Below are positions 18,007-55,241 of a DNA stretch of 58,164 bases, in pieces. The stretch comes from Lentilactobacillus sp. Marseille-Q4993 (GTDB taxonomy: Bacteria; Bacillota; Bacilli; Lactobacillales; Lactobacillaceae). Position 1 is the first letter of the stretch; each line of letters opens with the position of its first letter. A program made the position numbers and the translations under genes. A model generated the notes under the pieces. The model had not been told where the DNA came from. It saw only the letters and a program-made list of their open reading frames with translations, and did no database searches. The stretch is taken from positions 1-58,164 of the forward strand of contig NZ_CATNVB010000012.1 in the NCBI RefSeq assembly GCF_951230165.1, read 5' to 3'.

Positions 18007-18048
18007 AACCCCCAATGAGATTAATTTCTCATTGGGGGTTCTTTTTTT
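18007..18048. terminator. Terminator of xpkA, shared with aroB
   Basis: A perfect 14-bp stem AACCCCCAATGAGA / TCTCATTGGGGGTT with seven T on the plus side. It ends at the aroB stop codon (18047-18049), so it may serve both convergent units. Confidence 0.95.
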
Positions 18049-19129
18049 ACACAGTTGCTTTTGAATTTAAATTAAGAAACTCAGCAAGTTCACTGATGGC
18101 CACTGTTTTGATAGCGGGGCTGCCAATTCGTTTGAGGTAAACCAAATTGATTGTACCGTCATGGGCTTTCTTGTCGTTCTTAATTTTATCTAGAATGTCC
18201 TCAGCTGAAAAGTTAGGTAGTTCAGTAGGTAACCCAACTGTGGTAAGACGCTCAAATAATTCTGATTCGATGGTGGTTGGTGCTAATGAATGGTCTGAAA
18301 AGACCTTGCAAATGGCTAACATGCCAATACTAACGGCCTCACCATGTCTTAGTTTACCGTCACTTAGGGCTTCAACCGCATGACCAATGGTGTGGCCAAA
18401 GTTAAGGACTTGACGAAGAGAACCTTCATGTTCGTCGGCTTCAACTACCTCAGCTTTGTACTTGATGGACAATTCACTGAGTTGCTCTGCGTTATCCAGG
18501 ATATCTGCCGGTGAATTGATATGTTTTACTAGTTTCCAAATATCATGATCGGTCAGTCCGGCGACTTTGACAACTTCACCATATCCCTCAACTAGATCTC
18601 GCTGTGACAGAGTTTTCAAGGTATTGGGGTCAATAATTACCAAATCAGGCTGGTAGAAAGCACCAATGATGTTTTTAATGGTCCCAAGGTCCACGGCGGT
18701 CTTGCCACCAACTGAGCTATCTACTTGAGCGAGGAGTGAGGTTGGAATTTGAATCAAACTGATTCCGCGCATGAATGATGCCGCCAGAAACCCTGCTAGA
18801 TCACCAGTTACACCACCGCCAAGGGCGATAACGCCATCATCTCGATTAAATCCATCAGCAGCCATTTGCTGAGCAAGATTTTCTAGAACAGTAAGTGATT
18901 TTGATTGCTCGCCAGCCGGAAAATGATAACAAATAGTGTTAAACCCAGCATGATTTAGTGAGTCAGCAACTTGTGATTGGTACAAGGGAGCCACATTATC
19001 GTCGCTAATGAGAGCAGCTTTTCTGGTTTCCCAGACAGAAGCCACCATTTCACCAACTGATGACAGTAATCCCCTGCCAATTTTGACTTTGTACGGGTGG
19101 TTTGCGGTGTTAACGTTAATTAATTCCAT
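18047..19129 (-). CDS. aroB: 3-dehydroquinate synthase
   Basis: A 360-residue NAD- and zinc-dependent enzyme, the second step of the shikimate pathway. It has GGGVTGDLAGFLAASFMRGI, the family block IPTSLLAQVDSSVGGKTAVD, EVVKVAGL and the metal-binding RQVLNFGHTIGHAVEAL and LRHGEAVSIGM segments. Start ATG 19129 overlaps the stop of the upstream DAHP synthase gene (TAATG), so translation is coupled. The remaining shikimate genes are not in the window. Expression is set by the leader attenuator at 20155-20367. Confidence 0.96.
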   Translation of the reverse strand: MELINVNTANHPYKVKIGRGLLSSVGEMVASVWETRKAALISDDNVAPLYQSQVADSLNHAGFNTICYHFPAGEQSKSLTVLENLAQQMAADGFNRDDGVIALGGGVTGDLAGFLAASFMRGISLIQIPTSLLAQVDSSVGGKTAVDLGTIKNIIGAFYQPDLVIIDPNTLKTLSQRDLVEGYGEVVKVAGLTDHDIWKLVKHINSPADILDNAEQLSELSIKYKAEVVEADEHEGSLRQVLNFGHTIGHAVEALSDGKLRHGEAVSIGMLAICKVFSDHSLAPTTIESELFERLTTVGLPTELPNFSAEDILDKIKNDKKAHDGTINLVYLKRIGSPAIKTVAISELAEFLNLNSKATV

Positions 19130-20139
19130 TATGCAGTCACCTCAGCTTTTTTGGTTGGCTTTACTAGTGACCGAATGGCTGTTGCTTGGTTAGCCATTTC
19201 AAGGAACTGGTCTGGGGTCAAAGCTTGAGCACCATCTGAAAAAGCATGGGCTGGATCATCATGAATTTCAACCACGAGACCACTGGCACCAATTGCAACC
19301 CCGGCGAGTGCTTCCTTAGTCACAAATTCAGTGTGACCGGCAGCGTGGCTAGGGTCAACGATGACTGGGTAGTGGGATAGTTTTTGGAGAACGGGAACTG
19401 CGCCAACATCAAGGGTGTTTCTGGTGTACTTATTATCAAAAGTTCTAATTCCACGCTCAGCAATCATAATTTGGGTGTTACCACCAGCAGCTATGTACTC
19501 AGCAGCATTTAATATGTCGTCGATTGTAGCTGACATTCCCCGTTTCAACATTACCGGAATTTTGGTCTTACCAACAGCTTTGAGCAGGGAGAAGTTCTGC
19601 ATATTACGAGCACCAATCTGAAAAATATCGGTGTACTTGCCGACCATTTCGACGTGATCTTCGTCCATAACTTCAGTCAATACATCCAGACCAAACTCAT
19701 CTGCAGCTTGGCGGAGAAATTGAAGACCTGGTTCACCTAGGCCTTGGAATGAGTATGGTGAAGTCCTTGGTTTGAAGGCACCACCCCGAAGAACGGTTGC
19801 CCCACCGGCCTTGGCCACTTCTGCCATTTTCCGAACGTGGGCCAGTGATTCGACTGAACAGGGACCTGCCATCATGGTGAAGTTGTCACCACCGATTGTG
19901 CTATGCGGGGTTTGGATAATTGTGTCCTCTGGGTGGAAAGCTCGACTTCCTTGAACTGAGGCTGGGTGATTTTCAATTATTTGCGCAGCTGCGTCAAGTT
20001 CAACTTTATTGAGTGCATCTCGGTCCGCTCCCTGAATGGCGATGCGATTGTCGTGAACGAAGACCTCGGTGTGATCCCCAAAACGGTTTGTAATTTCTGA
20101 AATAACGGCTTCTTTACCTGGCTTAATAACAATAATCAT
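19129..20139 (-). CDS. aroF: 3-deoxy-7-phosphoheptulonate (DAHP) synthase, AroA(beta)-type
   Basis: A 336-residue enzyme that condenses phosphoenolpyruvate and erythrose 4-phosphate, the entry to aromatic biosynthesis. The N-terminal 70 residues (MIIVIKPGKEAVISEITNRF, HDNRIAIQGADRD) form the ferredoxin-like regulatory domain found in type I-beta enzymes. The barrel carries MAGPCSVES, RGGAFKPRTSPYSFQGLG, IGARNMQN, VMLKRGMSAT, ERGIRTFD and VDPSHAAGH. No chorismate mutase domain is fused. AGAGGA precedes ATG 20139. It is the first gene of the aroF-aroB operon, preceded by an aromatic leader peptide and mutually exclusive hairpins. Confidence 0.96.
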   Translation of the reverse strand: MIIVIKPGKEAVISEITNRFGDHTEVFVHDNRIAIQGADRDALNKVELDAAAQIIENHPASVQGSRAFHPEDTIIQTPHSTIGGDNFTMMAGPCSVESLAHVRKMAEVAKAGGATVLRGGAFKPRTSPYSFQGLGEPGLQFLRQAADEFGLDVLTEVMDEDHVEMVGKYTDIFQIGARNMQNFSLLKAVGKTKIPVMLKRGMSATIDDILNAAEYIAAGGNTQIMIAERGIRTFDNKYTRNTLDVGAVPVLQKLSHYPVIVDPSHAAGHTEFVTKEALAGVAIGASGLVVEIHDDPAHAFSDGAQALTPDQFLEMANQATAIRSLVKPTKKAEVTA

Positions 20140-20154
20140 AGTGAATTCCTCTTT

Positions 20155-20318
20155 TCATTTTTTTAAAATAAAACCCACAGCGGTAGATTTGCTGTGGGGG
20201 AATTGAGAATAAAAAATGGCCCCACAGCTTGGATGCTTACTGTGTGACCAAAATAATCATGCTATAATTGGCCGCACGAGTTTTAGACAGTGTCCTCAAC
20301 TCGTACGTTGATGACACT
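20155..20318 (-). promoter_or_regulatory. Transcription attenuator of the aroF-aroB operon
   Basis: Read on the minus strand, four stems are possible. Stem A (20318-20307 with 20300-20289) covers the leader-peptide stop. An alternative pairs 20306-20297 with 20283-20273. A terminator-like stem pairs 20249-20240 (GGTCACACAG) with 20227-20218 (CTGTGGGGCC) and ends in ATTTTTTATT. A last stem pairs 20198-20191 (CCCACAGC) with 20181-20174 (GCTGTGGG) and is followed by TTTTATTTT. CTGTGGGG of the third stem can instead pair with CCCCCACAG of the fourth, giving an antiterminator. The layout is that of classical ribosome-mediated attenuation. Confidence 0.75.
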
Positions 20319-20499: not shown

Positions 20500-20787
20500 A
20501 ACTTTTAAATAGTTACCCACTAAACCAATGAGGTGGAGATCAAGGTTAGGATGACCGCACAGAGAGTCGCAGATGCTGAGATGCGACCGGCCCCAACTAG
20601 CTAAATGGACCACTGAGGGTTTCTCCGAAGTAATAGTACGAGAAAACGGCACGGCACCCGTAAGCTGCCAGAGATATGTTAGTATCTCGCAGAGGGTGAT
20701 GGATAAGCTTTTTTGCTTACCATTGAAGTAAGGTGGCACCGCGGAAACTCCGTCCTTAACGTTAATGTTAGGGCGGAGTTTTTTTGT
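20500..20787 (+). promoter_or_regulatory. T-box riboswitch, probable tryptophan specifier
   Basis: The leader has AGAGAGTCGC in stem I (20561-20570), the T-box AGGTGGCACCGCG (20731-20743) and a terminator (20746-20760 with 20767-20780) ending in a T-run. The T-box bases can pair in an antiterminator that excludes this terminator. In the specifier region the sequence AAATGGACCAC places UGG at 20606-20608, the tryptophan codon. Uncharged tRNA-Trp should therefore turn on trpE-trpG. The specifier was placed by eye; the T-box itself is clear. Confidence 0.9.
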
Positions 20788-20801
20788 TTGGAGGAAATAA
20801 G

Positions 20802-22277
20802 ATGAAAATAGAAGAATTATTGAAGTACCAGGCTGAATATCAAATGGTTCCCGTTTCGGTTTCCGTTATTGATGATGGATTCGACTCCTTGCAAGCAATG
20901 ACGGCTTTGCGGGAGAGTGGCAAGCCCAGCTTTTTGATGACGGGGAATACGCAGCACGGCAGGGATAAGTACACGTTCATTTGTGTTGACCCGGTATGTA
21001 GTTTGACTTACCTGGATGGCGTTTTGACGGTTGATGATTTTCATAACAATCCGAAACAAGAACGGGTCCAGCTGGCTGATTACGTGAATGAATTAATGGC
21101 AAGGTATAAAGCTCCAGTCGTTGATGGGTTGCCACCGTTTGTGGGCGGTGTATTTGGATATTTTAGTTATGACTACGCTCGGTATGCAACAACTGCTCCA
21201 ATTAATCGAGTTGATAATCCGAATAATTTACCCGATGCGGATTTGTTGGTGGTGGACACTTCGGTCGCTTATAATCACAAGACTCATCAGATTACGGCGA
21301 CAAAGCTGGTACCCGTAACAACGTTGACTGAACAATATGAAGCGGTCGTTGAGGGGCTTAATGATATTTTGCAAACGGCAGTTGATCTAAGGCAGGGAGG
21401 AAAGATTCAGACGCCCCAAATTAGTCCCTTGAAGTTACAATTTTCCGAGGCTGAGTTTGCGAATCGAGTGAAAACCACGCAGAAACACATTATTGATGGA
21501 GATATCTTTCAGCTGATTCTATCTAATCCTCATTATGCGAATATCAACGGTAAACTACTCTCGGCGGCTGCTAAGTTCTTTAGTGACAACCAAGCACCTT
21601 ACCAATTTTACTTTGAACACAATGACTTTGAAGCCCTGGGAGCCTCACCGGAAACTCTGGTTGCCAAACGAGGTTTGCGGTTGTTTTCCTATCCACTTGC
21701 CGGGACAAGAAGGCGTGGCAGGACAGAAGATGAGGATAACCAACTCGCTCACGAACTGCAAACCAGCCAGAAGGAGTTATCAGAGCATAACATGCTGATT
21801 GATTTAGGGAGAAATGACTTGGGTAAGGTTAGTCAAATCGGGTCGGTTAAGGTAACGAGTACAAGGAACTTGCTTAGATTCAATAATGTGATGCACTTAG
21901 GGTCGGTGGTTGAGAGTACCATCGCGGAGCAGACTAAATTAATGGATATTGTTGATGCGGTCCTTCCTGCTGGAACCTTGTCTGGAGCCCCTAAGGTTTC
22001 AGCAATGCAGATAATCGCCAAGTTAGAAAATAATAAACGGGGGATATACGGTGGTGGTATTGGCTATCTTGGGTTTAATGATGAACTCGATCTAGCAATT
22101 GGAATCCGCTTAGTTTACCGAAAAGGTACCAAGTTGGTGATTCATTCTGGAGCGGGTATCGTTGCTGACAGCATTCCGAAGTATGAGTACCAAGAGTTTA
22201 ACAATAAAGCGCGGGGAGTGATAAATTCACTCTATGCAGTAGATAGGGAGGGTGATGTAAATGAATTTGCTAATTGA
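20802..22277 (+). CDS. trpE: Anthranilate synthase component I
   Basis: A 491-residue chorismate-using enzyme starting at ATG 20802 after GGAGG; an upstream in-frame ATG would overlap the T-box terminator. Catalytic blocks are DGDIFQLILSNP, LGASPETLV, YPLAGTRRRGRT, EHNMLIDLGRNDLGKV, PAGTLSGAPKVSAM and YGGGIGYL. With the TrpG subunit it makes anthranilate. The tryptophan T-box favours TrpE over the close relative PabB (folate), which cannot be ruled out from sequence. The usual tryptophan feedback motif LLES is replaced by LMTG at about residues 45-48. No other trp genes follow. It overlaps trpG by 17 nt. Confidence 0.88.
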   Translation: MKIEELLKYQAEYQMVPVSVSVIDDGFDSLQAMTALRESGKPSFLMTGNTQHGRDKYTFICVDPVCSLTYLDGVLTVDDFHNNPKQERVQLADYVNELMARYKAPVVDGLPPFVGGVFGYFSYDYARYATTAPINRVDNPNNLPDADLLVVDTSVAYNHKTHQITATKLVPVTTLTEQYEAVVEGLNDILQTAVDLRQGGKIQTPQISPLKLQFSEAEFANRVKTTQKHIIDGDIFQLILSNPHYANINGKLLSAAAKFFSDNQAPYQFYFEHNDFEALGASPETLVAKRGLRLFSYPLAGTRRRGRTEDEDNQLAHELQTSQKELSEHNMLIDLGRNDLGKVSQIGSVKVTSTRNLLRFNNVMHLGSVVESTIAEQTKLMDIVDAVLPAGTLSGAPKVSAMQIIAKLENNKRGIYGGGIGYLGFNDELDLAIGIRLVYRKGTKLVIHSGAGIVADSIPKYEYQEFNNKARGVINSLYAVDREGDVNEFAN

Positions 22278-50399: not shown

Positions 50400-50592
50400 T
50401 GCGATGAGTCGAGAGATCACGCAGCTTCGGCTGTTCCGCGCAAGCGGCTAGGTGATATTTTTCGAACGGGACACATATCTGCACGGATTTGCAGGTGTCT
50501 GATTCTAGCGGATTGTGGAATCCAAGGAATCTACTTACTTCGGTAAGTACCGTTAAAAGGACCGTAACCCTTTGGGTTACGGTCCTTTTTCA
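50400..50592 (+). ncRNA. Free-standing structured RNA, unassigned family
   Basis: A promoter TTGTAT (50364-50369), 17-bp spacer and CATAAT (50387-50392) starts a transcript of about 190 nt that ends in a strong terminator (50557-50590). No start codon with a ribosome site follows, and the next gene faces the other way. It folds into a junction: ATCAC (50416-50420) with GTGAT (50452-50456), enclosing CAGC-TTCG-GCTG and CCGC-GCAA-GCGG hairpins. Next come a GACAC/GTGTC stem with CTGCA/TGCAG above (50470-50499), GGATT/AATCC (50510-50523) and TACTTAC-TTCG-GTAAGTA (50532-50549). It is not SRP RNA, RNase P RNA, tmRNA or a T-box by motif. Confidence 0.7.
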
Positions 50593-50809: not shown

Positions 50810-51148
50810 TTAGGCATGAACAAGGTGAACTGCACTATCTAAAACGCCACTGTCACCAGAGAGAACAAAGTTATTATTTTTTACATCGATTTTCATATTA
50901 TCATCGAGGTAGGTTTGAGAATAGCCCTTTACGAACCATTGGCCAATGTTGGTCTCAACCGGTTGGTCATAGTCAGGAGTGGTTGCACTTTTGTTTACTA
51001 CAATTAAATCATACGCAGTTTCTAGTGAGCAAAAGCCAGCGTCTGAAAAGGGGCCTACCCCATCATCTAAACTTAGTAGAATGCGTTCATCATTAGTTAC
51101 CTTGGCGTTGATCTTAGCGATTGCTGCATCAGTTAAAGTTAATTTCAT
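50810..51148 (-). CDS. HesB/IscA-like iron-sulfur biosynthesis domain protein
   Basis: The start is ATG 51148 (MKLTLTDAAIAKI) after GAGGTG; a GTG nine bases earlier overlaps that site. The 112-residue protein resembles the YneR-type branch of the Fe-S_biosyn family: MKLTLTDAA at the start, ILLSLDDGVGPFSDAGFCS and LDSAVHLVHA. Only one cysteine (in GFCSLE) remains, so it lacks the Cys triad of true IscA scaffolds. Probably not a scaffold; the role is unknown. Confidence 0.75.
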   Translation of the reverse strand: MKLTLTDAAIAKINAKVTNDERILLSLDDGVGPFSDAGFCSLETAYDLIVVNKSATTPDYDQPVETNIGQWFVKGYSQTYLDDNMKIDVKNNNFVLSGDSGVLDSAVHLVHA

Positions 51149-51225
51149 TTTTTTCACCTCTGATTGAAGTGTAGGCTCTTATTTGAAAAAGTCAACTAGG
51201 TTGTGTGCAACTTAATAAAATAAAT

Positions 51226-51253
51226 TTGCAATTTAAAATCAGTATGCTAAGAT
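51226..51253 (+). promoter_or_regulatory. Promoter of the aminotransferase operon
   Basis: TTGCAA (51226-51231), 16-bp spacer and an extended -10 TGCTAAGAT (51245-51253). Confidence 0.6.
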
Positions 51254-51286
51254 TATAGTTAAATTATTCTAAGGAGTTTTTAATTT

Positions 51287-51349
51287 ATGCAAATTAATAA
51301 CGTTATCCAACTGAATAATACCTATTACTTTTGGTTTTTCGGACAGTGA
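51287..51349 (+). CDS. Aromatic leader peptide of the aminotransferase operon, 20 aa
   Basis: ATG 51287 is preceded by AAGGAG at 51271-51276. The product is MQINNVIQLNNTYYFWFFGQ, where six of seven consecutive residues are aromatic plus one more (Tyr-Tyr-Phe-Trp-Phe-Phe). The stop (51347-51349) lies in the first leader stem. It starts Met-Gln like the leader peptide at 20317-20367. Ribosome stalling at the aromatic run would report charging of tRNA-Tyr, -Phe and -Trp. Confidence 0.85.
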   Translation: MQINNVIQLNNTYYFWFFGQ

Positions 51350-51470
51350 TCTGTTAAGCCAAAAGCATTTTACGATGCAAAAGGCCCCGCAGATCACTTA
51401 GCTGACTGCGGGGGATAATACCGAGAGTAATTACCTTCCCAGTCAGTTTCCGTTGACTGGGATTTTTTTA
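51345..51470 (+). promoter_or_regulatory. Transcription attenuator of the aminotransferase operon
   Basis: AGTGATCTG (51345-51353), which includes the leader stop codon, pairs with CAGATCACT (51390-51398). CCCCGCAG (51385-51392) pairs with CTGCGGGG (51406-51413). The two stems overlap at 51390-51392, so they exclude each other. A terminator TCCCAGTCA/TGACTGGGA (51437-51462) with seven T follows directly before the gene. The position of the stalled ribosome should choose between them. Confidence 0.75.
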
Positions 51471-51488
51471 TGGAAAGGGAGAACTACT

Positions 51489-52676
51489 ATGACAAAGGAT
51501 TTATCAGCGATTATGAACCATGGCATTACGGAGATTCAACCATCTTCGATTTTGGCTTTCAACCAGGAGATTTCGTCAATTGAAGGTATTATCAAACTAA
51601 CTTTGGGGGAGCCAGACTGCAACACCCCCGATCACGTTAAGCAAGCTGCTATCAAGGCAATTGAGAACAATGACAGCCATTACACAAATTCGCGGGGAAC
51701 CATCGAACTTCGCCAAGCAGCCAGCCACTTTTTGAATAAGAAATATGGCTTAGATTATGACCCGACTGATTCTATTATCATCACTGCCGGAGCAACGGGA
51801 TCAATCTACTCTGCCCTAACAGCGATTCTTAATCCAGGAGATTCTGTAATCATTCCAACCCCAATTTTCCCATTCTATATTCCGGTAACTAAAATCAATG
51901 GTGGTAATCCAATCTTTGTGGATACTTCTGATGATGGGTTTATTTTGACCCCAGAAAAACTTGAGAAAGCGATTGAGGATTCAAACGGAACGGCCAAGGC
52001 AATCATCCTTAACTTCCCAACGAACCCAACCGGAGTTACATACAGTAAGGACGACCTTGAAAAACTAGCCGCTGTTTTGAAGAAACACGATATTTTTGTA
52101 TTAAGTGATGAAATCTACAGCGAATTAACTTATGAAGGTACCCACACTTCAATGGGAACCATCCTTCCAGACCAAACGCTTGTAATTAGTGGCGTTTCTA
52201 AATCTCATGCTATGACTGGTTGGCGAATTGGATTTATCTGTGGACCCGCTCCAATCATCAATGAAATTGCCAAGGTCAGCGAGTTTACGATTACTTCACC
52301 AACTGCTAATGCCCAGGCGGCAGCTACTGAAGCCCTTGAAAACGGAATGGATGATGCGTTGCCAATGAAAGAAGAATATCGTAAGCGACGTGATTTACTA
52401 GTTAAGGGGCTTGCCGAGGCAGGGTTTACTTGTCCTACTCCTAAGGGAGCGTTCTACGTATTTGCTAAGATTCCTACTTTTCTAACCCAGAATAGTGATC
52501 AGTTCTGTCATGAACTTGCCCATGAGGCAAAGGTTGCTTTGATCCCCGGTTCATCATTTGGCCTTGGTGGTGAGGGGCACGTTCGAATCAGTTATGCAGC
52601 TAGTGAGGAAGATTTAACCGAAGCCGTTAAGCGAATTAAAAAATATGTCAACGAAAAGCAGGGGGTTACACCATGA
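51489..52676 (+). CDS. araT: Aromatic amino-acid aminotransferase (class I PLP)
   Basis: The start is ATG 51489 (MTKDLSAIM) after AGGGAG, giving 395 residues. Class I aminotransferase parts are LTLGEPDCNTPDHV, the cofactor region ITAGATGSIYSALTAIL, LNFPTNPTGVTY, DEIYSELTYEG and the PLP lysine in SGVSKSHAMTGWRIGF, then R in GHVRISYAAS. The leader peptide indicates aromatic substrates. It is coupled to the next gene by ATGA overlap. It could make Phe and Tyr from keto acids or run in reverse to phenylpyruvate. Confidence 0.9.
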   Translation: MTKDLSAIMNHGITEIQPSSILAFNQEISSIEGIIKLTLGEPDCNTPDHVKQAAIKAIENNDSHYTNSRGTIELRQAASHFLNKKYGLDYDPTDSIIITAGATGSIYSALTAILNPGDSVIIPTPIFPFYIPVTKINGGNPIFVDTSDDGFILTPEKLEKAIEDSNGTAKAIILNFPTNPTGVTYSKDDLEKLAAVLKKHDIFVLSDEIYSELTYEGTHTSMGTILPDQTLVISGVSKSHAMTGWRIGFICGPAPIINEIAKVSEFTITSPTANAQAAATEALENGMDDALPMKEEYRKRRDLLVKGLAEAGFTCPTPKGAFYVFAKIPTFLTQNSDQFCHELAHEAKVALIPGSSFGLGGEGHVRISYAASEEDLTEAVKRIKKYVNEKQGVTP

Positions 52677-53698
52677 AAATTTTGATGTATAACACACGGG
52701 ATGATGAGAAAGCCGCGATTAAGCAGTGGGTGGCGGACAATAATATTCAAGTTGATATGAATGATGTGCCACTAAGTGATGAAACCGCTAAGCTGGCGGC
52801 TGGATACGATGGAATTATTACTCAGCAACACGGTTCAATTGGTAGTGAGCAAGTATATAAAACACTAAGCTCATTAGGAATCAAACAAATTGGCCTGCGA
52901 ATTACTGGGTTTGAGATTGTCGACCTTGAGTTGGCAACTAAGTATGGTTTGAAAGTAACTAACGTACCGGCTTACTCACCAAGATCCGTTGGGGAATTAG
53001 TATTAGCCCATACAATGTGGTTGGTTCGCCACATGGGGGTTGTTTCTGAGCGGGAAAAGGTCGGTGACTTCACGTGGACCGGAATTCAATCCCGTGAAAT
53101 TCATGATTTGACCGTTGGAATTATTGGGGTTGGTAAGATTGGTAGCGCCGTGGCTCGACTATTTAATGCGTTAGGGGCCAAAATAATTGCGGCTGACCCT
53201 ATCAAAAGACCTGAGATTAGTGATATTGTTGAATATGTTAGCCATGAGGAGGTGTTCAGGACTGCAGATGTTGTCACGTTACATACCCCATTAACCGAAG
53301 AAACCCACCATATGATCAACGAACGGACCCTTTCGCTAATGAAACCGACCGCATTTCTAATCAACGCTTCCCGCGGCCCAGTTATCGATACTCCCGCCTT
53401 GCTAGCAGCCCTTAAATCGGGTGAAATTGCTGGGGCTGCCCTAGACACGTTTGAGGGTGAACAAACAGTTGTCAATCAAGACCTTACCGAGACCGGATTG
53501 AATGATCCAGTGTTGAAAGAATTGTTTGCCATGCCAAACGTAAATGTTAGTCCCCATATTGGCTTTTACACTGATGTTGCTGTGTCCAATATGATTACCA
53601 TTTCGTTGGATAATGTGGTCTTGATTTTGAAAGGGAATGGAGATGGCCATCTGGTTAATCCAGCGGTATTGAATAGGGGAGAAGTAGTAACAAAGTAG
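52673..53698 (+). CDS. D-2-hydroxyacid dehydrogenase
   Basis: A 341-residue NAD-dependent dehydrogenase of the D-lactate/D-hydroxyisocaproate type. The NAD-binding motif is VGIIGVGKIGSAVARLFNALG (about residues 146-165). Catalytic arginine, glutamate and histidine are in NASRGPVIDT, DTFEGEQ and NVSPHIGFYTD. Its ATG overlaps the aminotransferase stop (ATGA). Together the pair can convert phenylalanine to D-phenyllactate, an antifungal product of lactobacilli. Whether its preferred substrate is aromatic is not proved by sequence. Confidence 0.9.
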   Translation: MKILMYNTRDDEKAAIKQWVADNNIQVDMNDVPLSDETAKLAAGYDGIITQQHGSIGSEQVYKTLSSLGIKQIGLRITGFEIVDLELATKYGLKVTNVPAYSPRSVGELVLAHTMWLVRHMGVVSEREKVGDFTWTGIQSREIHDLTVGIIGVGKIGSAVARLFNALGAKIIAADPIKRPEISDIVEYVSHEEVFRTADVVTLHTPLTEETHHMINERTLSLMKPTAFLINASRGPVIDTPALLAALKSGEIAGAALDTFEGEQTVVNQDLTETGLNDPVLKELFAMPNVNVSPHIGFYTDVAVSNMITISLDNVVLILKGNGDGHLVNPAVLNRGEVVTK

Positions 53699-53756: not shown

Positions 53757-53786
53757 TTGACTTTAGCAATACTCAAAGATTAAAAT
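53757..53786 (+). promoter_or_regulatory. Promoter of the amino-acid permease
   Basis: TTGACT (53757-53762), 18-bp spacer and TAAAAT (53781-53786), 46 bp before the gene. Confidence 0.55.
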
Positions 53787-53831: not shown

Positions 53832-55241
53832 ATGTCTTTAGGTTCAAGAATTTTCCGTCGGGAAAAATTAGACAGGTACCTTGAAACGGATAAAAAATTC
53901 GGAAAAACCATGACGGCTATCGATTTGATTTCACTAGGAATCGGTGCTGTTATCGGAACGGGAATTTTCATTCTCCCAGGAACAGTTGCTGCAACAAAAG
54001 CTGGTCCCGGAATCATCGTATCTTTCATTTTAGCTGCTATTATTTGTTCGACCGCTGCGATGTGTTACGCCGAGTTTGCTTCTGCCTTGCCAGTTGCGGG
54101 AAGTGCGTACTCATACGGAAACCTAGTTTTCGGTGAAATCATCGGCTGGGTACTTGGTTGGGCACTTATTTTGGAATACGTGTTGGCGGTTGCGACCGTT
54201 TCTAGTGCTTGGGGAGCATACTTTAAGTCTTTCTTGGCCGGATTCCATATCAACATTCCTAATGCAATCGTTGGTCCGTTTGATCCCGCAAAGGGAACGT
54301 ACGGAAACTGGATTGCAATAATCATCGTAATTCTGATTTCGGCGATGTTGAATCACGGGGTTCACTCGTCAGTTCGAATCAATAATTTCATTGTTTTGGT
54401 CAAGATTGCCATCATCGTTTTGTTCATTGTGGTTGGAGCATTCTTTGTTAAACCAACTAACTGGCACCCATTCTTACCATTCGGAAACGCCGGAATCCTT
54501 CATGGGGCAGCGGCCGTCTTCTTTGCTTACTTAGGTTTTGATGCGGTTTCTGGCTCGGCGGCCGAGGTTAAGAATCCAGGTAAGAACATGCCAATTGGAA
54601 TTATTGGGACGTTAGTCATTGCGACCGTTCTCTACGTTGGGGTTTCAATTGTACTGACTGGGATGGTTCCATTTACTAAGTTGAACGTTTCTGATCCGGT
54701 TGCGTTTGCACTCAACATGGTTCACCAAAGCTGGATTGCCGGCATTATCTCACTAGGAGCCCTTGCCGGAATGTTCACCATGATGGTAACAATGATTTAC
54801 TCATCATCAAGATTGATTTATTCAATTGGCCGTGATGGTTTGCTACCTAAGTTCTTGGGTAAAATCGATAAAAAGGGAACTCCTAAAAATAGTATGATTA
54901 CCATTACGATTCTGATTGCCTTCTTAGGTGGATTTGTTCCACTTGATCAGTTGGCAAACTTGGTTAATATCGGAACTCTAATTGCTTTCTTGTTTGTATC
55001 AATTGGAATTATTCCGTTAAGAAAGAACAAGGATATCGACAATTCGAAGGACTACAAGGTACCTTTCTACCCGGTAATGCCAATCGTATCAGCGTTGCTA
55101 TGCATCTTAATGCTAACTCAATTACCATTGGAAACTTGGATTGCATCACTGATTTGGTTTGCATTTGGCCTAATTCTTTACTTCTCATACGGAGTTAAGC
55201 ACAGTCGCTTAAATGACCCAGACAAGGTGGTTGAGGAATAA
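53832..55241 (+). CDS. APC-family amino-acid permease, YfnA/CAT-like
   Basis: A 469-residue membrane protein with about 12 helices. The CAT-type features are GIGAVIGTGIFILPGTVAAT, GPGIIVSFILAAIICSTAAM, AEFASALPVAGSAYSYGNLV and FFAYLGFDAVSGSAAEVKNP. It probably takes up amino acids; proximity to the aromatic aminotransferase operon makes aromatic or branched substrates possible but not shown. GGAGG precedes ATG 53832, and the hairpin at 55249 closes the unit. Confidence 0.9.
   Translation: MSLGSRIFRREKLDRYLETDKKFGKTMTAIDLISLGIGAVIGTGIFILPGTVAATKAGPGIIVSFILAAIICSTAAMCYAEFASALPVAGSAYSYGNLVFGEIIGWVLGWALILEYVLAVATVSSAWGAYFKSFLAGFHINIPNAIVGPFDPAKGTYGNWIAIIIVILISAMLNHGVHSSVRINNFIVLVKIAIIVLFIVVGAFFVKPTNWHPFLPFGNAGILHGAAAVFFAYLGFDAVSGSAAEVKNPGKNMPIGIIGTLVIATVLYVGVSIVLTGMVPFTKLNVSDPVAFALNMVHQSWIAGIISLGALAGMFTMMVTMIYSSSRLIYSIGRDGLLPKFLGKIDKKGTPKNSMITITILIAFLGGFVPLDQLANLVNIGTLIAFLFVSIGIIPLRKNKDIDNSKDYKVPFYPVMPIVSALLCILMLTQLPLETWIASLIWFAFGLILYFSYGVKHSRLNDPDKVVEE

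Follow-up and report, generated by a model that had tools for sequence, protein, structure and literature searches.

Ribosome-mediated attenuators of the trp, his and phe type are classical in Proteobacteria. A second device, the T-box riboswitch (RF00230), uses uncharged tRNA to raise the expression of amino acid genes by antitermination, binding the tRNA directly and without a leader peptide. Leader-peptide attenuation in Firmicutes is described, in the accessible parts of the respective papers, for histidine, with His codons, his or hisS/hisZ-type genes and hosts among bacilli, the Bacillus cereus group, Eubacteriales and Erysipelotrichales (PMC2965389, PMC9413887), and for the leucine-rich ilv-leu attenuator peptide of Staphylococcus aureus, with branched-chain codons and genes (PMC5794164). 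Here we describe an element at positions 51226-51488 (+) of a 58,164-nucleotide window, contig NZ_CATNVB010000012.1 of Lentilactobacillus sp. Marseille-Q4993, which lies upstream of an araT-type aminotransferase gene and hicD, a D-2-hydroxyacid dehydrogenase gene. From its sequence, it is very probably a ribosome-mediated transcription attenuator that pools Phe, Tyr and Trp. With the proteobacterial systems it shares a leader rich in regulatory codons, exclusive hairpins, an intrinsic terminator and amino acid genes downstream. It differs in pooling three aromatic amino acids, in its Firmicutes host, in an antiterminator that would be released via a segment over the leader stop codon, and in aromatic codons that pair with CCAAAAG. 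Several regulatory codons and a terminator with an alternative structure are common to this element and the histidine attenuators; with the S. aureus system it shares leader-peptide attenuation in a Firmicute.

The predicted leader open reading frame (ORF) at 51287-51349 (+) translates to MQINNVIQLNNTYYFWFFGQ followed by a stop codon, bearing out the 20-residue leader with six consecutive aromatic residues proposed in the initial annotation. The aromatic codons TAT TAC TTT TGG TTT TTC (Tyr-Tyr-Phe-Trp-Phe-Phe) occupy 51323-51340, and Gln-Leu-Asn codons (51308-51316) represent a motif found again in many leaders, a short distance ahead of the aromatic codons. A Shine-Dalgarno sequence, AAGGAG, matches at 51271-51276, so that a short ORF with a putative ribosome binding site precedes a structural gene, and the codon cluster would fit the metabolism of araT-hicD, as it does in relatives. 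Among ATG-started ORFs of 9-41 residues on both strands of the window, this is the only one with a run of at least five aromatic residues; runs of at least four occur in three. Without mismatch, AAGGAGTTTTTAAT is found in this genome only here and 5' of a paralogous leader. From 50524 to the end of the window, the leader element included, Rfam models give no match at gathering score. The two matches elsewhere in the window are a T-box at 20519-20760 and a Ref68/Lacto-3 small RNA at 50400-50523 (+; 101.8 bits).

Downstream of the leader, all on the plus strand, lies a chain of segments with alternative partners. Segment A (AGTGATCTG, 51345-51353) covers the leader stop codon and pairs with 51390-51398 of segment B (GGCCCCGCAGATCACT, 51383-51398), whereas 51385-51392 of B pairs with segment C (CTGACTGCGGGG, 51402-51413). 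Segment D (CCCAGTCAG, 51438-51446) is either the partner of C in the antiterminator or the 5' arm of the terminator, with segment E (TTGACTGGG, 51453-51461, and the T-run to 51469) as the other arm. The terminator (51438-51469) thus reads CCCAGTCAG-TTTCCG-TTGACTGGG plus seven T and ends about 20 bases 5' of the araT start at 51489. In addition, segment Z (CTTTTGG, 51328-51334), within the aromatic codons, pairs with Z' (CCAAAAG, 51359-51365). The predicted helices are mutually exclusive, one of them being an intrinsic terminator. The region 51270-51475 folds better than 200 of 200 dinucleotide shuffles (z -4.60), and alignments of 21 rows contain compensatory changes in five helices. A ribosome that finishes the leader would hide A, leaving B to pair with C and D with E, so that the terminator forms; a ribosome stalled on the aromatic codons would leave A free to capture B, and C would pair with D. 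The leader therefore probably turns aromatic amino acid genes on when these amino acids are short.

Computed folding agrees with the direction of this switch for the window element and for 11 of 19 aligned elements, with a reversal in none. Several results weigh against it. The aligned elements are mutually related and were selected visually because their layouts resemble each other. Further pair types in A:B and B:C are no better than in shuffles (reached by 358 and 194 of 500, respectively), and the three pairs of B:C are reached by 72 of 500. In the window element, C:D before E emerges is still at 0.79 with the ribosome at the stop codon and at 0.99 when untranslated, so that the switch relies on B:C forming first; in 15 of 19 stalled elements, B:C is above 0.5 as soon as C has emerged. 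When the ribosome sits on the final aromatic codon, mean C:D is 0.62, and in G044 C:D is absent in every computed state. In L188, L191 and L234 the ORF continues beyond A to a later stop codon, where a terminating ribosome would leave A uncovered, a misfit to simple masking. Full-length equilibrium folding, comparing the stop state with a state in which the ribosome edge lies 13 bases beyond the start of the aromatic run (its first codon), could be scored for 56 of 60 leaders. Only three leaders (L233, which is that of the window, L003 and L228) favoured the terminator at stop by a margin of about 0.1 or more; it was less likely there in three others, namely L018 (0.85 to 0.05), L264 and L183 (0.27 to 0.01), the last being the paralogous leader of the same genome; in the remainder the two states were nearly equal. 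Clear for the window element and mixed over the 56, this calculation was rejected as a demonstration that the switch works generally. On a looser, diluted measure over 60 rows, the stalled state led the stop state by a margin of 0.2 in 7 of 37 araT, 5 of 11 EIIC and 1 of 12 DAHP synthase leaders, with the opposite direction in none, none and one, respectively. Beyond the aligned group, and in DAHP synthase leaders above all, folding predicts the switch weakly or not at all. The possible sigma-70 promoter upstream (51232-51259, +) is a weak match to the consensus (9 of 12 positions, a consensus match only), and promoter-like matches in the region number 12 against 8.5 expected.

That weak promoter match would suit an ordinary intergenic terminator with araT transcribed from a promoter further downstream, the short ORF being a chance occurrence or a relic. 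This is very improbable, since the leader is conserved across genera, covariation falls in mutually exclusive helices and the leader co-occurs with linkage of araT to hicD or EIIC. Moreover, the upstream gene (50810-51157, -) is divergent and does not need a terminator at 51438-51469. Control of araT by a T-box, with an incidental ORF, would be in line with the T-box in the same window and with T-boxes being the usual device for histidine genes in Lactobacillales (PMC9413887, in the part accessible). At gathering score, however, neither the window element nor 40 related loci contain one, which makes this the least credible of the alternatives; nor did a T-box turn up there as a replacement for the leader. 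The 40 were further araT loci, or loci that a strict rule had classed as leaderless, and at least 10 were later found to have a leader.

A different kind of alternative concerns what is sensed. In model systems such as TnaC, a nascent chain arrests the ribosome in response to a free amino acid, and the Gln-Leu-Asn motif with the aromatic run might act as such an arrest peptide and not as a series of hungry codons. Of 64 leaders, 29 contain a Gln/His/Lys-Leu/Met-Asn motif (for L189 and L236 the copy counted is N-terminal), versus a mean of 2.0 and a maximum of 7 in 2000 peptide shufflings, a test which overstates independence because the leaders are related. It recurs in 8 of 17 further leaders, and its Leu is variously encoded by TTG, TTA, CTG, CTT and CTC. 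On the other hand, the aromatic residues vary in number and order (FWFWFF, YYYW, FYYYWY), as expected if codons matter, and Asn is encoded by AAT in 28 of 29 cases, which leaves room for a cause at the RNA level. Arrest by the nascent peptide is thus improbable, but attenuation through codons gives no explanation for the motif and its nearly fixed AAT.

The leader is not restricted to this locus. The initial annotation placed a kindred attenuator, also starting with Met-Gln, at 20155; the element is real, and its leader, MQTNFCNLVQYYYWSR plus stop, does start with Met-Gln and reads from 20367 to 20317 (-), upstream of genes for DAHP synthase (19129-20139, -) and aroB (18047-19129, -). Nearby, the T-box (RF00230) at 20519-20760 (+) precedes a gene (20784-22277) that looks like trpE/pabB, so that T-box and leader-peptide control would stand side by side. 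The paralogous leader L183 lies before a membrane protein matching PF13303 (291.9 bits), hereafter EIIC-like. This family, PTS_EIIC_2, also called PfoR-like, is here tied by operon and leader to an aromatic aminotransferase and a hydroxyacid dehydrogenase. Sequence search gave no solved relative of the EIIC-like protein at E up to 1, and its predicted structure (mean predicted local distance difference test score, pLDDT, of 40) is too poor to use. Pattern searches of the genome gave 67 matches to AAGGAGTTTTTAAT with up to two mismatches (75 for the control), of which 30 were scanned for leaders, and 73 matches to TWYTWYTWYTGG (62 for the reversed pattern), of which the scan covered the 70 lying beyond the window. 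No leader-like ORF was found among the scanned matches, in a search that misses the EIIC leader and is no census. Two candidates inspected closely, L160 (antisense within a Ser-rich gene) and L157 (in a promoter region), are not leader-like.

Across 151 genomes of the family Lactobacillaceae, one per species, aromatic leaders are present in 24 of 40 sampled genera. Genus labels were counted by hand, and g34 rests on the doubtful leader L276 and g10 on that of L341. The target units are araT(-hicD)(-EIIC), EIIC, DAHP synthase and aroE/tkt-DAHP synthase. Matches to AraT at E 1e-110 occur in 126 of the genomes. Among the 30 best-matching araT loci, 24 have their own leader (18 by rule, six more on a relaxed look), L257 and L261 lie behind leader-EIIC, and none was found in L252, L253, L255 and L262. 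Another 20 regions upstream of araT include 17 close to an EIIC gene, all with an aromatic leader (terminator not required); no aromatic leader was found in the other three. EIIC matches are present in 81 genomes; the best 30 comprise nine loci directly behind a leader, 16 downstream of a leader-bearing araT or araT-hicD, and five (L193, L196, L201, L206, L207) where none was found. For DAHP synthase, matched in 61 genomes, the best 30 loci include 12 with a direct leader (L276 doubtful), four behind shikimate dehydrogenase, or transketolase plus shikimate dehydrogenase, with a leader, and 14 without one in the 450-600 bases searched. The RNA model R1 matched 33 of the 151 genomes at E 0.1 or better, a figure to which hits on the reverse strand and a class V aminotransferase taken for serC contribute; weak matches were counted only when an aromatic leader was seen. 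Several loci extend the picture: in L334 (G147) the leader MTQAKRTCSLTSQSNSYLYYWFFK precedes transketolase, shikimate dehydrogenase and DAHP synthase, which would put a precursor-supplying enzyme under aromatic control; in L341 (G079, from 156) MSNMQLRQLNNYLYFRLYFLKKFNR directly precedes a D-hydroxyacid dehydrogenase; and on the reverse strand of L336 (G034) a short ORF with WWW and FFY, possibly a Trp-weighted leader, precedes an amino acid permease.

The leader follows gene linkage. In 80 named araT loci, a rule-based leader is present in 15 of 21 with hicD or EIIC adjoining versus one of 59 without (Fisher 1.2e-10, with species that are not independent and partly repeat the sample). The six misses among the linked loci are L013, L028, L025, L081 and two bifidobacteria; L025 and L081 have QLN leaders with scattered aromatic residues. 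In the bifidobacterial araT-hicD loci (L006, L007), MQGTRFTYWWHGFDL lies upstream of 3001 (TYWW peptide), with a complementary pair, CGATCTGTG/CACGGATCG, recognized by eye and no T-run; it may be an attenuator that was transferred and altered in mode. Full leaders occur in Sporolactobacillus (L015, L016). The leader thus passed the conservation test on which its dismissal had been made to depend. The initial annotation had suggested an undescribed aromatic regulon of heterofermentative lactobacilli. Its novelty holds as far as the literature reached: among the listed matches from the open-access literature, with subscription literature mostly outside, none dealt, in title or abstract, with aromatic leader peptides of Lactobacillaceae. 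Its limits are wider, since Pediococcus, Liquorilactobacillus, Agrilactobacillus and Sporolactobacillus, not all of them heterofermentative, also have leaders. Together, these sequences point to an undescribed shared aromatic control system in lactic acid bacteria.

In the window, araT (51489-52676, +; PF00155) has PRK07309 as its best NCBIfam model, at 546 bits and thus below the cut-off of 576, and hicD (52673-53698, +) overlaps its end by 4 bases. The nearest solved relative of HicD by sequence is 4xkj, the D-lactate dehydrogenase DLDH744 of Sporolactobacillus inulinus CASD, for which only D-phenyllactate was detected from phenylpyruvate (PMC4580590, PMC9618312, in the parts accessible). 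Met307 of 4xkj aligns with Met in the window protein. A BcaP-like amino acid permease gene (53832-55241, +), with a promoter-like site at 53757, is a candidate operon neighbour.

The biosynthetic or balancing role advanced initially needs revision. In a purely biosynthetic reading, induction by shortage would support de novo synthesis of Phe and Tyr, with AraT as the last step and hicD as a passenger. The same type of leader before DAHP synthase, shikimate dehydrogenase and transketolase genes speaks for this, as do the matches to DAHP synthase and prephenate dehydrogenase in the genome studied here. Among 34 genomes with a leader before araT or EIIC, however, prephenate dehydratase is matched in 7, DAHP synthase in 16 and prephenate dehydrogenase in 24 (22 over the cut-off). 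The 27 without a prephenate dehydratase match include this genome, and ten keep the leader with no match to any of the three families. We therefore regard the biosynthetic role as rather unlikely. Salvage of aromatic keto and hydroxy acids fits the ten genomes better, because in pathway-poor cells an AraT induced by shortage would need keto acids from outside or from hydroxy acids. Induction of araT-hicD thus looks more like salvage, perhaps via the EIIC-like protein, which would take up phenyllactate, indolelactate or phenylpyruvate; the D-hydroxyacid dehydrogenase would run in the oxidising direction, and AraT would then make amino acids from the keto acids. In its full form, as a family-wide aromatic-shortage regulon controlled by attenuation instead of T-boxes, with araT-hicD-EIIC as its salvage branch, this proposal is tentative, possible but short of probable.

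Lactic acid bacteria would thus have, in 24 of 40 genera sampled, an aromatic control whose kind is known chiefly from Proteobacteria. It would tie together DAHP synthase, transketolase, aromatic aminotransferase, D-hydroxyacid dehydrogenase and an orphan EIIC-like protein, offering a candidate function for PF13303. It also makes testable why phenyllactate, an antimicrobial in foods, and indolelactate, active in gut signalling, are formed or recovered. If salvage is true, cells could recover phenyllactate, which is usually regarded as an end product.
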